A stretch of DNA of 64,000 bases from Sulfurospirillum diekertiae (lineage in GTDB: Bacteria; Campylobacterota; Campylobacteria; Campylobacterales; Sulfurospirillaceae), in the NCBI RefSeq assembly GCF_002162315.1, contig NZ_CP021416.1, positions 1,934,207 through 1,998,206 of the forward strand. Direction: 5' to 3'. Below, piece by piece: positions 6,036 to 11,412 of this stretch; position 1 is the first letter of the stretch; each line of letters starts with the position of its first letter. A program made the translations under genes and the position numbers. The notes under the pieces are model-generated. The model had not been told where the DNA came from, searched no databases, and worked only from the letters and a program-made list of their open reading frames with translations.

Positions 6036-7253
6036 TCATGCAAACCGCAGTGAAAAACTATTCCACCCCTCTTTACATGTAAGCTCAAATCCAAACCCGT
6101 GCTTCTGCACGATTTTTTTAACAATGCTAAGCCCCAAACCAAAGCCCTCTACGCCCCTGGCATCATCTCCTTGGGCAAACGGTTCGCAGTAGTAATCTAA
6201 AGTGTGTTCGAGTATTTCGCCTCTACTTTTAACGCTAATCGTGTGCTCTTTGACTTCGATAACAATGGGTTTTTGTGTGGTGTATTTGAGGGCATTATCG
6301 ATTAAGTTTTTAAGTGCGATGGAAAGGTAATTGAGATCACCCTTGATCTCAAACGAATCATCGATGTGAAGCTCCACCAAACTTTCATCTTCAATGAGTG
6401 CGCGTGAAAGTGACTCGGAGATGAGTGTTTCGGCATTGAAAGTGCTAACGTTTAGTTGCTCCATATTGGCATTCAGCCGCTCGATGTCTAAAAGCTCTTT
6501 GGTCAGCTCATCGATCTGGGAAATCGCTTTTTTGAGGCTTGTCTGATATTTTCCTTCGCCTAACATCTCTAAAGCCAGTTTGGATTTGGCAAGTGGCGTT
6601 CTTAACTCGTGCCCGATGTCACGAAGCAAACGTTGGCGAGAGAGGATGAGTGCTTCGATGTTGGACGCCATCGCATTAAAGGTATCGGAGAGCTTGCCAA
6701 GTTCGTTAGAGCCAAGGCGCTTCATTCTTACATGTAAAGCACCTTCGCCAAATTTTTGAAGCGTTAAGGCGATCTGTTTAAGCGGAAAAATAAGCTTGAT
6801 AACCATCAAAAACGTCAAAACAAGCACAAAAATATCGGCGAAAATGAGGTAACTCACGGTATCTAGATGGTAAAAACCCTCTTGTTGCGCACGATCGCGC
6901 ACCAGTAAGCTCTCATCCAAATAGCTCATGAGTAAAAGGTATCTGCCTTTGGTGTCCATCAAAATTTTGACTTCACCAAAAGAGCTGCTTTTTTCATAAA
7001 TCGTTTTAGAGCCTTCCAACACGCTTTGGGACTCTGCAATGAGTTCGAAATTAAAGGATTGAAGCCTTTTGGTAAGTGCTGTTTGGTCATTATTGGCAAG
7101 GTCACGAAAGAGTTCGGTGGAAGCTTGAAGGTATTTCTCTTTTAAGAGCATCTCTATTTTAGCTTGGGTAAGTTGGTTCGTTTCACGCGAGACAAAGAGC
7201 ATCAGTGAAAGACTGACCAAAAAGAGTAAAAAGAGCTTCGTAAAGATGGACAT
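6036..7253 (-). CDS. Sensor histidine kinase of the SHP cytochrome operon
   Basis: A 405-residue inner-membrane kinase. Membrane helices lie near residues 5-21 and 133-155 with a periplasmic domain of about 110 residues between them. A HAMP linker (PLKQIALTL to FNAMASNIEALI) runs to about 203, then an H-box (DIGHELRTPLAK, His near 214), an N-box (LKNLIDNALKY) near 312 and a G-box (GFGLGLSIVKK) near 370. It lies one base downstream of an OmpR-type regulator and is the last gene of the operon, so kinase and regulator are surely partners. The gene contains two near copies of the dispersed palindrome, at 6072-6083 (LTCK) and 6727-6738 (LHVR). The stimulus is unknown; the Spy-like protein upstream could be the periplasmic sensor partner. 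Confidence 0.88.
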   Translation of the reverse strand: MSIFTKLFLLFLVSLSLMLFVSRETNQLTQAKIEMLLKEKYLQASTELFRDLANNDQTALTKRLQSFNFELIAESQSVLEGSKTIYEKSSSFGEVKILMDTKGRYLLLMSYLDESLLVRDRAQQEGFYHLDTVSYLIFADIFVLVLTFLMVIKLIFPLKQIALTLQKFGEGALHVRMKRLGSNELGKLSDTFNAMASNIEALILSRQRLLRDIGHELRTPLAKSKLALEMLGEGKYQTSLKKAISQIDELTKELLDIERLNANMEQLNVSTFNAETLISESLSRALIEDESLVELHIDDSFEIKGDLNYLSIALKNLIDNALKYTTQKPIVIEVKEHTISVKSRGEILEHTLDYYCEPFAQGDDARGVEGFGLGLSIVKKIVQKHGFGFELTCKEGWNSFSLRFA

Positions 7254-7254
7254 C

Positions 7255-7926
7255 TTAACCTACCATTTTGTAGCCAATGCCCCAAACGGACTTGATGTAT
7301 TTGGGATTTTTGGAATCATCGCCTATTTTAGCTCGGAGATTGCTAATGTGCATATCCACCGTGCGATCTTTGGAGTTGTAGCCAATGCCATTAATCGCGT
7401 TAAAAATTACTTCACGGGAAAAGACTTTGCCTTGATTGGAAAGCAACAGCAACAAGATGTCAAACTCAATTTTGGTAAGGTCGAGTAAATAACCCTCCAA
7501 TGTGATTTCCATCTTCGCTTCATCGATTTCAAACTCCCCAACTCTCTTTTTGGATTGGGTACTTCTGCGCAAATGGGAGTTGATTTTCAGCACCAATTCT
7601 CTAGGTTCATACGGCTTTGCAAGGTAGTCATCCGCACCCACGCCATAGCCTAAGATTTTATCGCTCAGTTCATTGCGTGCCGAGGAGATAATAATATGCG
7701 CATCACTCATGGAGCGGATTTCTTTACAGACATCAAAACCGTCCATTTGTGGAAGCATCAGATCGAGGACAATTACTTTGTACTGTGTCGGGACAGCTTT
7801 AAGGTCGACAAGCGCGTCTTTGGGTTTGTCGTAAGCGTGAACTTCAAAGTCATAATTGTGCAAGTAATCCTTTATGAGTGATTGCATCTCTAAATCATCT
7901 TCGATGAGTAAAATTTTCTCGCTCAT
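7255..7926 (-). CDS. OmpR-family response regulator
   Basis: A DNA-binding response regulator of 223 residues. The receiver domain has the acidic pair EDD near residue 10, the phosphate acceptor in VLDLMLPQMDG near 56 and KPYEPREL near 104. The C-terminal winged helix ends in the usual SNLRAKIG and YIKSVWGIGYKM. ATG at 7926 was chosen over the one 12 bases upstream because it overlaps the preceding stop as ATGA. It sits between the Spy-like gene and its kinase, so it probably controls this same operon. Target sites were not identified. Confidence 0.88.
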   Translation of the reverse strand: MSEKILLIEDDLEMQSLIKDYLHNYDFEVHAYDKPKDALVDLKAVPTQYKVIVLDLMLPQMDGFDVCKEIRSMSDAHIIISSARNELSDKILGYGVGADDYLAKPYEPRELVLKINSHLRRSTQSKKRVGEFEIDEAKMEITLEGYLLDLTKIEFDILLLLLSNQGKVFSREVIFNAINGIGYNSKDRTVDMHISNLRAKIGDDSKNPKYIKSVWGIGYKMVG

Positions 7927-8300
7927 TCCACTTCCCACTCTTCAAGATTTTGCGCAAATTTTTGGCGCTGTTCGGGCGTTAAAATGGCGTGCATTTGCAC
8001 TAAAAAATGACTTTCAATGATGGTGGCTTTTTGGTTGATCGCTTGGCTCAGCTTTTGCAAATCTTCCTCATTCACGCTCTCTTGTAAAAGTACGCTCTCT
8101 TTTTGATCTTTGATCTTCTCTTTAAACTCACGAAATCCCTTCAAATTCACGCGGTACTGTTTCAAAATGCCTTTAACACGCTCTTTTTGATCGTGTGATA
8201 ATTCCAAATAGGAGAGGTCTTTGCTGAGTTGATGCTCTTTTTTGCCATCATGATCAGCATACAGTGAAAGGGTGAGAAGAAAGATCAAAAGTAATTTCAT
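7923..8300 (-). CDS. Spy/CpxP-like periplasmic LTxxQ protein
   Basis: A 125-residue small exported protein. Residues 1-15 are a signal peptide (KLLLIFLLTLSLYADH), and the mature part is helical and charged with an LTPEQRQKF motif near 108-116, the LTxxQ signature of the Spy/CpxP family. CpxP-type proteins buffer envelope stress or dampen their cognate sensor kinase; here the gene overlaps the response regulator by 4 bases, so a sensor-accessory role is likely but inferred. It lies directly after the cytochrome genes in the same direction. Confidence 0.75.
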   Translation of the reverse strand: MKLLLIFLLTLSLYADHDGKKEHQLSKDLSYLELSHDQKERVKGILKQYRVNLKGFREFKEKIKDQKESVLLQESVNEEDLQKLSQAINQKATIIESHFLVQMHAILTPEQRQKFAQNLEEWEVE

Positions 8301-8308
8301 ACCTTTTC

Positions 8309-9412
8309 CTATATAGGTTTAATGTCACGATTGTTCAGGAGTCCATTTTCAATATTATCATGGCATGCCTTACAATTCGATGGTTTGCCAATATCTGCTC
8401 TTTTAAACACCGCTTTGTCAATCTCTTTGTGGCGATTTTTCCAAAAAGGTGTTTCAGTAATCGCAAGATAGGTTTTTTCTTTGTCTAAACTAGCAAGAAT
8501 CCGCAATGAAGACTCTTTTGTGGAAGTCTCTGCGCTGTTTTTCACTAAAAATGCTTTAATAGATTCTGTGGTTGCCGCGTCCAGTGAAGCATCATCCCCA
8601 AAGTGATTTTGCAACGTATCCATCATGCTCACCCACGATTTTTGTGGAAGTAAAAAGGGAGGATAGAGTGTATGACAACTGATACACTCTTTATAAAACG
8701 CTGGGTTTTCTTTGGCATAGTCCATTTTCACATTGCCATCGGCGATTAAAAGGCTATTGGGCGCGACAAGCATATACACAAAGGCAAAAAGAGAAAGCGA
8801 AATGGCAACAACACCAAAAGCTTTTTGCACCAAAGTGAGTTTGACACCCTCTTCATTGCCCATCTTATAACCATCGACCATCGATTCCAAGGCGCGTGAT
8901 TTATGAAGAAATTTATCGAGCAAAACGCCTGCAATATGCGCAAAAATAACCGCCATAAGGACATTCGAGAAGAATTCATGCACCTCTTTAAAGAGTTTCA
9001 TGTCTCGAAACATCGTATGGTTCATAAAGGAAAATATGCCCATGCCCTCTTTCACGCCATACGTTAAAGCCCCCGTAATCACCGCTAAAAACGTTAAAAC
9101 GATCATTGCGATAATGGCATAACTCGACGCTGGGTTGTGCCCGATATGCTCTTTTTTGTTCCCAAAAATGGAGAACATATACTCTTTTAAATCTCTTAGA
9201 CTAAAGTTAAAATCTTTAAATTTAGAATACTTGACATCCATAAAACCCCACAAAATTCTAAAAAGAAACAGTAAGGCTAATGTGTAGCCAAGCGCTACAT
9301 GTAATGTTAATAATCGTTTGACTTCAGGCGTTAAGAAAACCGCGAGCATCATAACCATTAAGAGAACATGTGAGACTCTGGTATACAGCCCCCATACTAA
9401 GATTTTTTTCAT
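8309..9412 (-). CDS. Cytochrome b561 with fused C-terminal diheme cytochrome c module
   Basis: A 367-residue membrane electron carrier. The first half has about four membrane helices and histidines typical of bacterial cytochrome b561 (YTRVSHVLLM at the N-terminus, HVALGY, VHEFFSNVLMAVIFAHIAG). After a further helix (KAFGVVAISLSLFAFVYML) a periplasmic part carries two heme-c sites, CISCH and CKACH. This tail is clearly related to the separate diheme cytochrome encoded just upstream. Start ATG 9412 overlaps the upstream TGA as ATGA; the ATG six bases earlier is the alternative. In SHP operons the b-type cytochrome passes electrons from the quinone pool to the soluble c-type proteins; that role is applied here by homology. 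Confidence 0.82.
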   Translation of the reverse strand: MKKILVWGLYTRVSHVLLMVMMLAVFLTPEVKRLLTLHVALGYTLALLFLFRILWGFMDVKYSKFKDFNFSLRDLKEYMFSIFGNKKEHIGHNPASSYAIIAMIVLTFLAVITGALTYGVKEGMGIFSFMNHTMFRDMKLFKEVHEFFSNVLMAVIFAHIAGVLLDKFLHKSRALESMVDGYKMGNEEGVKLTLVQKAFGVVAISLSLFAFVYMLVAPNSLLIADGNVKMDYAKENPAFYKECISCHTLYPPFLLPQKSWVSMMDTLQNHFGDDASLDAATTESIKAFLVKNSAETSTKESSLRILASLDKEKTYLAITETPFWKNRHKEIDKAVFKRADIGKPSNCKACHDNIENGLLNNRDIKPI

Positions 9413-9867
9413 TCCCATCTCCCGTAATTTGGTATTTTAATAGCGCGTTCCGAATAGTTACCTTGATCGGCCAATGTATGGCAGGCGCTACAATTTGATA
9501 GTGAACCAACCTCTTTTTGCTTTATCAGCCGCACAGGCACTTCGCGGTGCTCTTTGATAAACTTAGGCGACTCGGTAATACGCATTGAAGTATTGTTCGC
9601 CGCTATTTTACCACTTCCTGCATTACTTATCAGATACGCTAAAATCTGATCATGCTCCGCCTTACCTAAAGAGGCATCCGTTCCAAAGTGGTCACTGAGA
9701 TTTTCCATCACTTTTTCCCATGACGTTTTATTTAAAAGAGCAGGCTGATACCCAAAATGGCAACTCGCACACTCTTTTTGATACAGCGCATTATTCACTG
9801 GCGCAACACTCCCCGCAAACGCAAAAGTAAGTCCAAGTACAGTCATCATTAAAAGTATCTTTTTCAT
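9409..9867 (-). CDS. Periplasmic diheme cytochrome c (DHC-like)
   Basis: A 152-residue exported protein with a signal peptide (KKILLMMTVLGLTFAFAG) and two CxxCH heme sites, CASCH near residue 34 and CSACH near 132. Between them lie KTSWEKVMENLSDHFGTDASL and a TESPKF motif, which recur almost unchanged in the tail of the cytochrome b561 gene downstream. In purple bacteria and Shewanella a diheme cytochrome of this sort is the electron donor of SHP. It follows the SHP gene by 9 bases and overlaps the next gene by 4, so it is clearly operonic. Confidence 0.85.
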   Translation of the reverse strand: MKKILLMMTVLGLTFAFAGSVAPVNNALYQKECASCHFGYQPALLNKTSWEKVMENLSDHFGTDASLGKAEHDQILAYLISNAGSGKIAANNTSMRITESPKFIKEHREVPVRLIKQKEVGSLSNCSACHTLADQGNYSERAIKIPNYGRWE

Positions 9868-9876
9868 CGTCTCTCC

Positions 9877-10293
9877 TTATTGGTTGATGATATACGTGAG
9901 TACATCACCTTTTTCAAGCGCAGTCCCCTCACGCGCAAACACATCGTTAAAATTACGTCTCAGCCACTTTTGCACTTCTGCAACATCCGTGAGCCTAGCC
10001 GCATTTACTGAAGGGGCAAGAGCGGTGATTGGCTTGTTGGTGTTGACATTTTGCCCGCCATTTTTGAGGTTGTTGGTATGGCACGAAGTACAACTCATCT
10101 CGCCTCCTTTTTTGCCCGTGTGTTTAGAGAAAAAAAGTTTCTCACCACGCGCGGCATCAAAGCCCGTAAAGTTTGGATCCTGTGCCTTTGCTTCCGCGCT
10201 TAATTCGTTCATGTAGGTTTGCATCGGCGCATTAAACGCTTTGGCATTCAGCAACGAGAGTGATAACACTATCAGACAGACTATTTTTTTCAT
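9877..10293 (-). CDS. SHP-type monoheme cytochrome c (DUF1924)
   Basis: A 138-residue exported cytochrome and first gene of the operon. The signal peptide is residues 1-17. The single heme site CTSCH is near residue 68, followed by TNNLKNGGQ, and the C-terminal part has EVQKWLRRNFNDVFARE and GDVLTYIINQ. These are the hallmarks of the DUF1924/SHP family (sphaeroides heme protein), which binds oxygen and small ligands at an asparagine-ligated heme. The gene order SHP, diheme cytochrome c, cytochrome b matches known shp operons. A perfect dispersed palindrome lies upstream at 10369-10380. Confidence 0.82.
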   Translation of the reverse strand: MKKIVCLIVLSLSLLNAKAFNAPMQTYMNELSAEAKAQDPNFTGFDAARGEKLFFSKHTGKKGGEMSCTSCHTNNLKNGGQNVNTNKPITALAPSVNAARLTDVAEVQKWLRRNFNDVFAREGTALEKGDVLTYIINQ

Positions 10294-10368
10294 GGCTAAC
10301 TCCTAAATTGATACCGAAATTTTAGAATAACAGTGTCAATTTAGGATTGACCTTTCCTTTACACTTTC

Positions 10369-10380
10369 TTTACATGTAAA
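10369..10380. repeat. Dispersed palindrome TTTACATGTAAA
   Basis: A perfect 12-base copy, extended to 14 by flanking C and G, between the SHP gene and the end of the divergently placed prp regulator gene. A partial copy (TTTACA) lies a few bases before it. Confidence 0.8.
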
Positions 10381-10383
10381 GAT

Positions 10384-11412
10384 TTAGAGAAGATCAGCTC
10401 GCGGCTCAAACGGAGAAATATTGTTTAAAAACAGAGCTCCATACGGTGTTTGCTTTTCAATGTCATAGTAACACTCTATGAGTGTTTTATCCGAAACGAT
10501 TGCTCCTTTAATGATGCGCAAAATTTTAGCGGCATCCGTCCGTGAAATGTGCGCTGGCGCTTGAGAAGCAGAGGTAAAATAACGGTGCATACGGTAAATC
10601 AGCTTTTTGTTTTGAATTTCCACAATTAAAGAGTCAATCGGCATTTTAAAAAACATAAAATTTTGTTTGACATTAATCGAAAAGTAAGCCGTATCCATGC
10701 CATAAATCTTGGTCGAGTGCGAGTCAAAAAAGTAGAGACTTTTGTTGTAGTTGTCATAAAACGTATCATGCATCAACTCCAAAATCTGTATTTTTTCACT
10801 CTTTGTATAGAAATTTCCGATACGCGAAAACGCAAAACGCAACAACGATTCGATGGAATACCATTCGGTGGATTCAAACGCATAGTTTGAAATCTGATCA
10901 TAGCGCAATTTTTTTAGCTCCACCACTTCGGCTGAAATCACTCGTTTATAGGGCGTAGGAACTACTTTATCCCTATATGCAGGTCCAGGAAACTGCGGAT
11001 GAATCACAAAACGATCTTGCGCCTCTTTATCTAAGATATACCGAAGTCCACCCTCATAACCTTGATCGATAATGCGTATTTCATCTTTGGGAACATGTTC
11101 CAACATATCTTCAAAATCAACACCATTGCACTCTTTTTCCCAAATAGTCTGAGGATAGCGAAAGAATTTAGAGATGGAAACTTTCACCTCATGGGAAGGC
11201 TCTTTGGTGACGAGCTTGTCGATCCATGCCGTAAGGGTACGACGGTCTTTATTGATGATGGCAGCAAACTTGGAAATACTGAGACCAGAACGGTTGTAAA
11301 TCGCAACTATTTTCTCAATAGCATTATCGTACATAGAGCCCACCTTGGTACTTTTTTGATACATTTTGTATAAAAACTGTACGAGTCTATCATCTATGTC
11401 TGAAAATTGCAT
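10384..11412 (-). CDS. HTH transcriptional regulator, probable prp operon regulator
   Basis: A 342-residue protein transcribed away from prpE. Residues about 28-75 (IYNRSGLSISKFAAIINKDRRTLTAWIDKL) look like a helix-turn-helix. The remaining 250 residues form an unrecognised domain with no membrane segment and could bind a propionate-derived metabolite. It is not the sigma-54 type PrpR, since no AAA+ domain is present. Divergent placement over an 80-base gap holding direct repeats and a TATAAT box supports control of prpEBCD; this is inference. The exact start is not certain: ATG 11412 gives MQFSDIDDRLVQFLY. Confidence 0.65.
   Translation of the reverse strand: MQFSDIDDRLVQFLYKMYQKSTKVGSMYDNAIEKIVAIYNRSGLSISKFAAIINKDRRTLTAWIDKLVTKEPSHEVKVSISKFFRYPQTIWEKECNGVDFEDMLEHVPKDEIRIIDQGYEGGLRYILDKEAQDRFVIHPQFPGPAYRDKVVPTPYKRVISAEVVELKKLRYDQISNYAFESTEWYSIESLLRFAFSRIGNFYTKSEKIQILELMHDTFYDNYNKSLYFFDSHSTKIYGMDTAYFSINVKQNFMFFKMPIDSLIVEIQNKKLIYRMHRYFTSASQAPAHISRTDAAKILRIIKGAIVSDKTLIECYYDIEKQTPYGALFLNNISPFEPRADLL

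Follow-up and report, generated by a model that had tools for sequence, protein, structure and literature searches.

Positions 6036 to 10293 of a 64,000-nucleotide stretch of the Sulfurospirillum diekertiae genome (assembly GCF_002162315.1, contig NZ_CP021416.1, positions 1,934,207 to 1,998,206; the whole stretch is called the window in the following) hold six genes on the minus strand, which form an operon for the sphaeroides heme protein (SHP). The first gene encodes SHP itself, a DUF1924 protein with one c heme (9877..10293; PF09086, E-value 1.8e-35; R. sphaeroides SHP 1dw0, 2.8e-18), and it is followed by the genes for a free, soluble diheme cytochrome c (sDHC; 9409..9867; PF09626, 1.3e-34; PDB 3u99, 3.6e-27) and for a chimera of cytochrome b561 and a diheme tail (CytB/mDHC; 8309..9418, tail at approximately 8342-8695; PF01292, 5.6e-23; PF09626, 2e-32). 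Next to these cytochromes, the operon encodes a Spy-like periplasmic protein with a signal-peptide-like start and the C-terminus EWEVE (7923..8300; PF07813, 23.6 bits), an OmpR-type response regulator (7255..7926, starting at ATG; PF00072, 3.3e-22; PF00486, 3e-24) and a sensor histidine kinase of the ArsS family (6036..7253; NCBIfam NF038389, 266.6 bits at a cut-off of 250). Upstream of SHP and on the same strand, the direct repeat TGTAAAG-AAAG-TGTAAAG (10357..10374), the proposed binding site of the regulator, starts 81 bases before the SHP ATG; it is adjoined by a palindrome, GTCAAT-CCTAA-ATTGAC (10335..10351, minus strand), which was found by eye and has similar counterparts in many genus-mates.

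A preliminary description of this DNA had named the same six genes, including a two-component system of the operon's own, and all of them were recovered by profile matches and open reading frames (ORFs), with the regulator and the ArsS-family kinase following the Spy-like gene. It also had these genes linked by overlaps, which is correct for the Spy-like gene and the regulator, sharing an ATGA, and incorrect for the regulator and the kinase, which are separated by one base; the border between the free cytochrome and the chimera gene is the only other overlapping one. The longest ORF of the regulator begins further upstream at a GTG (7938), and the chimera gene of the window is a single open frame without frameshift.

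PF09086 was detected in 86 of 397 Campylobacterota genomes, and the neighbourhoods of all 86, the window included, were compared. SHP, diheme cytochrome c and cytochrome b are linked in every one of these loci, and the complete order SHP-sDHC-CytB/mDHC-Spy-response regulator-histidine kinase is kept in 62 of them, the Spy gene standing directly before the regulator in 62/62 and possibly overlapping it by ATGA in 21. The three cytochrome genes occur without Spy and without the regulator/kinase pair in 21 loci (eight in family f2, eleven in f3 and one genome each in f7 and f8), one of which, L091, still shows a single regulator-like gene within range; one further locus is cut off by a contig edge after Spy. 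The Spy-like gene was expected to be unusual in an SHP operon, and its frequency beside DUF1924 genes had been suggested as a check. With 63 of the 86 loci it is rather the rule in this phylum, and the linkage to DUF1924 operons elsewhere is strong.

The distribution of the upstream repeat agrees with that of the two-component genes. Its consensus, TGTMAAG-N4-TGTMAAG, consists of two 7-base repeats 11 bases apart upstream of SHP, and such direct repeats are the kind of site bound by OmpR-type regulators. On the SHP strand of the 62 six-gene loci the repeat is exact in 37, has one mismatch in 18 and two mismatches in six, and the 62nd locus has one mismatch at -81 once an over-long ORF start is corrected; the repeat starts 78-88 bases before the SHP start codon in 55 of 61 sites. 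In the 21 pair-less loci no same-strand repeat occurs, the best match having at least four mismatches; two mismatches are reached by 42 of 9845 other 230-base segments of the same loci. One of the 62 six-gene loci carries an exact repeat on the opposite strand. The genome of the window, a single contig of 2.88 Mb, contains one exact copy, in front of the SHP operon. Moreover, a tighter form of the repeat was found 45 times in 35 of 104 Arcobacteraceae genomes and the reversed control not once. A Fisher's test of the repeat against the regulator/kinase pair is not relied on, because it ignores kinship and the opposite strand.

The Spy-like protein was described as an LTxxQ protein of the Spy/CpxP family, and this assignment was borne out by profile homology. 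A profile of 52 of the 63 proteins, near copies being left out, matches E. coli Spy (1.1e-10) and CpxP (2.9e-4) in the PDB, and at E 0.01 PF07813 is found in 39 and PF13801 (Metal_resist) in 38 of the 52 aligned members. L32, L34, Q38, L107 and Q111 are invariant in the family, and L29, H104, F115 and W122 are nearly so. On these grounds the window protein is classified as a member of the Spy/CpxP superfamily. LTXXQ genes occur at 21 places in 121 genomes, of which seven adjoin the chimera gene in operons of SHP type. Eight of the other 14 lie beside a regulator and a kinase, two beside a kinase, one, with a broken Spy frame, beside pieces of a regulator and a kinase, and three beside neither. 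The genome of the window itself has a second Spy-regulator-kinase set without SHP (L102, 7599-10110), with a Met-rich Spy and a kinase reaching 454.5 bits to the ArsS family, kinases of which are known for acid sensing; a literature search for ArsS together with Spy found nothing. One of the seven places next to a chimera gene (L298) belongs to a genome, G053, without a PF09086 match; chimera, Spy, regulator and kinase stand together in it, i.e., the control module occurs there without SHP.

We consider it likely, with a probability of roughly 60%, that the operon is governed by a dedicated, self-controlled two-component system of which the Spy-like protein is the periplasmic sensor part or brake, an interpretation drawn from the gene arrangement and its conservation. 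Quinol would reduce the membrane cytochrome b561, and the electrons would reach SHP through the diheme tail of the chimera and then the soluble diheme protein, a path taken over from work on R. sphaeroides; the heme of reduced SHP would then lose its Asn ligand and, in the periplasm, bind a small ligand such as O2 or NO. Control of expression would lie with the regulator and kinase encoded in the operon, the regulator binding to the tandem TGTMAAG repeat before SHP and controlling all six genes, its own included, probably as a single transcript. The Spy-like protein might work with the kinase as sensor part or as a brake, being released or loaded by the signal, in the manner of CpxP with CpxA or of CnrX with its anti-sigma factor. 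That this signal comes from the envelope or from a ligand, as was proposed in the preliminary description, is a fair guess. The combination of DNA site, dedicated kinase and periplasmic accessory would offer a direct handle on the function of SHP; the condition that activates the kinase would be the condition in which SHP is wanted.

Several observations weigh against this interpretation. Two of the 86 loci keep the regulator/kinase pair without Spy, and Spy is thus not indispensable; in these two loci the repeat has two and three mismatches, and three in the locus at the contig edge. The opposite strand carries the repeat in two of the 21 pair-less loci, with two mismatches in L084 and as an exact copy 59 bases before SHP in L094 (genome G083). 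With up to two mismatches the pattern occurs at 181 places in the genome of the window compared with 67 for the reversed pattern, so that a wider regulon or weaker targets are possible, and some sites in Arcobacteraceae lie away from SHP. Furthermore, locus counts are not independent, as the regulator/kinase pair changed about five times on the SHP/sDHC tree; of three independent pairs with support, 2.9 showed the same-strand repeat changing along with it and 1.9 Spy doing so, which is too few for significance. Regarding the protein itself, the PF07813 score of 23.6 bits lies just below the cut-off of 24.3, and the window sequence alone matches solved Spy with an E-value of 0.23 only. Its single-sequence structural model (mean predicted local distance difference test score, pLDDT, 76.7) ranks CnrX, NccX, CpxP, Spy and ZraP high, none of its fold matches reaches E <0.001, and an unrelated helical protein is the top match.

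The same ranking and the Metal_resist matches are consistent with a Spy-like protein that senses metals in the way of CnrX or ZraP, making the operon part of a response to copper, iron or other heavy-metal stress, which we regard as unlikely although it fares best among the alternatives. Its support comes in part from other SHP operons, which were surveyed in four plasmid loci and in the best 80 of 561 contig loci, the latter with a bias towards Pseudomonas, Stutzerimonas and Thiobacillus. Of these 84 loci, 14 have a Metal_resist-like gene beside SHP-sDHC, and in 11 of them, all from Stutzerimonas/Pseudomonas (L127-L133, L138, L143, L145 and L146), SHP-sDHC is followed by genes for an extracytoplasmic function (ECF) sigma factor, a zf-HC2 anti-sigma factor and a CnrX-like Metal_resist protein, the gene calls having been checked by Pfam on two of each. 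Copper or heavy-metal genes lie near two of the four plasmid loci inspected, and Czc genes were reported nearby in Chromatiaceae (Meyer et al., 2010, PMC2909971). Moreover, in A. vinosum growing on pyrite instead of sulfide the DUF1924 gene rises with a log2 fold change of 7.10, and along with it go up its diheme and b561 neighbours, a two-component regulator gene nearby and efflux genes, FieF among them (PMC11267869). An SHP operon of a different type is thus strongly regulated, possibly by a metal or iron cue; however, A. vinosum carries a PepSY-type module and not Spy. In the Campylobacterota loci, profiles for copper oxidase, CopC and CopD, weak ones built from one Caballeronia seed protein each, had no match in any of the 86, and of the four copper profiles tried only the CopA-like one matched, in 6/86 loci.

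It is less likely still that the kinase answers to general envelope damage, with the SHP genes as one of its outputs and lipid A modification as another. Of 22 Arcobacteraceae loci, 18 have an upstream eptA homologue that shares the strand of SHP (L037, L039-L041, L043-L047, L049, L060, L062, L063, L065, L095, L113, L116 and L119), often with PAP2 and dgkA, dgkA lying 77-114 bases before SHP in 11 of them (checked by Pfam for L039 only), and in L062, L063, L113 and L119 an exact, reversed repeat is found approximately 80 bases before eptA. However, this arrangement was seen in Arcobacteraceae only, and the single exact repeat in the window's genome also speaks against such a broad output. An improbable role is that of a chaperone co-made with the operon's exported cytochromes and without any part in sensing, as the profile kinship to the chaperone Spy, the shared operon and the two loci with the pair and no Spy would allow, since all 21 cytochrome loci without the regulator/kinase pair also are without Spy and 11 of the 14 other LTXXQ places lie beside a regulator and/or kinase in the absence of these cytochromes.

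The preferred reading, a dedicated two-component system with a Spy-like sensor part or brake, has parallels in known systems. CnrX works through an anti-sigma factor, and CnrYXH-type sensing (CnrX, NccX) resembles the window in using a related helical periplasmic sensor, while the CnrX-like gene set stands by SHP in Stutzerimonas/Pseudomonas and not at the window operon. The CpxP-CpxRA/Spy system of E. coli likewise ties a protein of the Spy/CpxP superfamily to a two-component system, but cpxP is transcribed apart from cpxRA (PMC6737893), whereas in the window the Spy-like gene precedes the regulator and the kinase belongs to the ArsS family.

SHP operons with sDHC and cytochrome b were described by Meyer, Kyndt and Cusanovich (2010, PMC2909971), the only fitting paper found on SHP in Sulfurospirillum, who listed cytochrome b/diheme chimeras for Rhodobacter, Rhodoferax, C. 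fetus, A. butzleri, S. deleyianum and W. succinogenes and proposed the path from quinol via cytochrome b and the diheme modules to SHP. The window operon is a well-kept representative of this published operon type, sharing with it SHP together with the CytB/mDHC chimera, mostly also with sDHC, the regulator/kinase pair known from C. fetus and A. butzleri, and the lack of the C89-C97 disulfide typical for the epsilon group. Neither the pairing of a chimera with a further diheme protein nor a two-component system at such a locus is therefore new. Three kinds of sensor kinase occur in these operons, the rare third one (SK3) in C. fetus and A. butzleri, and an accessory periplasmic protein, Orf1, is tied only to the first kinase type, SK1 (Meyer et al., 2010, PMC2909971). 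The window kinase was compared with SK3 at the level of phylum, which is the same, and of gene order, which recurs in related families, and may be of this type. The accessible text of that paper names neither a Spy-like gene nor a regulator site for the Campylobacterota group.

The Orf1/SK1 module is similar to that of the window, as a small periplasmic protein precedes regulator and kinase, but the protein is PepSY and not Spy. In the alphaproteobacterial plasmid loci of Azospirillum and Ruegeria, Orf1 is a PepSY protein (PF03413), and the Azospirillum kinase carries the motifs SGLYWQ and RSRSLWD known from SK1; the idea that Meyer's Orf1 is a Spy protein was rejected for these two loci. The kinase of the Caballeronia plasmid locus is most like QseC, below the cut-off, and has no annotated accessory. 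Among the 84 other loci, PepSY genes occur in three and the Spy-regulator-kinase order in one, L182, which itself belongs to Campylobacterota. Small periplasmic sensor-like proteins hence stand by SHP operons in three forms, i.e., PepSY, Spy-like, and CnrX-like with a sigma factor, which, the Spy-like and CnrX-like kinds being distant kin, suggests that SHP is called up by periplasmic cues. In the accessible texts of the literature found, we did not meet the fixed link between the Spy-like gene and the two-component system, the binding site proposed for the regulator, Orf1 as a PepSY protein, the variant with a sigma factor in Stutzerimonas/Pseudomonas or the probable frameshift in Arcobacteraceae treated below. 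In Thiobacillus and kin (L163-L192 and others), a copper-oxidase-like gene lies near the SHP operon, mostly on the other strand; copper-oxidase-like matches were obtained in 18 of the 84 loci and CopA-like ones in five.

The SHP of the window scores 121.6 bits against PF09086 (cut-off 22.5) and has its CxxCH motif. Trp84 is kept in the window and in 86/86 loci, and Asn88, the sixth heme ligand, in the window and in 85/86, the exception being L101 (genome G182), in which nine residues are missing there; as both residues are kept, ligand switching by this SHP can be expected from its sequence even without the disulfide. The cysteines of the C89-C97 disulfide are replaced by Phe and Gly in the window, by Phe in 85 of 86 loci (one gap) and by Gly in all 86. 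This disulfide is present in all but four SHP homologues and absent in the epsilon group (Meyer et al., 2010, PMC2909971), and it is for this reason not counted as defining SHP.

The diheme cytochrome is present as a free protein and again as the tail of b561, as the preliminary description had it, and the two modules, each matching PF09626 and having two CxxCH motifs, are related by 38% identity over 130 residues (alignment E-value 1e-26). The segment SW..VM..L..HFG.DASL said to be shared by both is found in general, except that the tail reads SWVSMMDTLQNHFGDDASL, i.e., SW..MM rather than SW..VM. The word duplicated is appropriate as far as homology is concerned and not in the sense of a recent event, and the modules are kin without being each other's nearest kin. 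In a tree of 110 out of 249 modules (near copies of >72% identity dropped, split genes left out), free modules and tails of Campylobacterota fall on opposite sides of branches with modest support of 88 and 86, below the 95 mark, and most Pseudomonadota modules are nearer to the Campylobacterota free modules than to the tails. The nearest relative of the window's free module in this set is another free module (69%), and that of its tail another tail (62%). A recent duplication is thus not supported by the tree, and the two modules look like homologous but old paralogues. The genome of the window encodes a second cytochrome b/diheme chimera (L003, 1456-2589) near a monoheme cytochrome c gene and without SHP. 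In one genus-mate (L050, genome G056) the cytochrome b gene is present as two ORFs of 137 and 262 residues, and its near twin L051 is unbroken.

The first survey included 22 loci from Arcobacteraceae, and 13 of these have a chimera gene broken at one and the same place. A pattern search of the 104 Arcobacteraceae genomes, in which the bases of CCN and the next base were left open and the preceding ACT codon was fixed, resulted in 28 genomes of 8 genera, all of them reading TAT CCC WCC; in these 28 species the +1 frame change lies at approximately 1501-1521 of each of L207-L234. In 28/28 the frame of cytochrome b, open over 741 bases or more, ends six codons (once 15) after CCC, and the +1 frame continues for 108-122 codons through the second heme motif; the shift site itself closely follows the first c-heme motif. 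When an unbroken homologue was used as query, the matches listed comprised these 28, each in two pieces, and 16 others of at least 62% identity in a single piece. The part in the +1 frame has a median ratio of nonsynonymous to synonymous substitution rates (dN/dS) of 0.24, and the part before it of 0.30 (samples of up to 150 pairs). We think it quite probable that in these species the chimera is made only by a programmed +1 shift at TAT-CCC-WCC and that the mRNA gives a short form with one heme and a full form with two. A true split into two proteins is unlikely, because the piece with the second heme would be without signal peptide.

On a cytochrome b tree of 28 split and nine unbroken genes the state changed six times and the unbroken genes are nested among the split ones, a pattern that an ancient split form with occasional loss would produce; this direction is an inference, since a single very long branch carries the root and the states cluster weakly (values as low in 24 and 15 of 500 shuffles). 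Among 49 tRNA matches from 150 of 232 candidates scored in one Arcobacteraceae genome, one tRNA-Pro (UGG) was found, with only UGA and GCU for Ser and UGU for Thr, and therefore CCC would be read by a wobbling tRNA. CCC alone was rejected as cause of the shift, as the same 28 genes hold 13 other in-frame CCC codons before the site and 14 after it, so that the context of the site must matter. Other genes at the 22 loci contain 110 CCC codons, none of them followed by WCC, a number too small for a test of avoidance. A downstream mRNA structure aiding the shift was not found (mean z -0.19 over the 28, against single-base shuffles).

A similar +1 frameshift at ACA_CCC_(UCC_GAA) is known for cps of Listeria phage PSA, with CCC followed by UCC in a low-GC bacterium, but the phage capsid gene has a downstream pseudoknot (PMC5009743), whereas the Arcobacteraceae case concerns a cellular cytochrome gene of 28 species without such a structure found. 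Perkinsus mitochondria have conserved +1 and +2 frameshifts (PMC9550989), those of cox1 taking place at AGG and CCC codons (PMC5009743). A literature search on Arcobacter with programmed or ribosomal frameshifting found no report. If the shift is real, it would be deeply conserved in a respiratory gene of bacteria and might set the electron flow to SHP; bacterial recoding would then extend to a conserved cellular gene of respiration, with its shift at CCC-WCC.

Across the window, no RNA family reaches its gathering score, and scans for promoters and terminators gave output at chance level. Between SHP and a divergent prpE-like gene, 10384-11412 encodes a protein of 342 residues without Pfam or NCBIfam match, and an ORF of similar size fills this place in several genomes of the genus.

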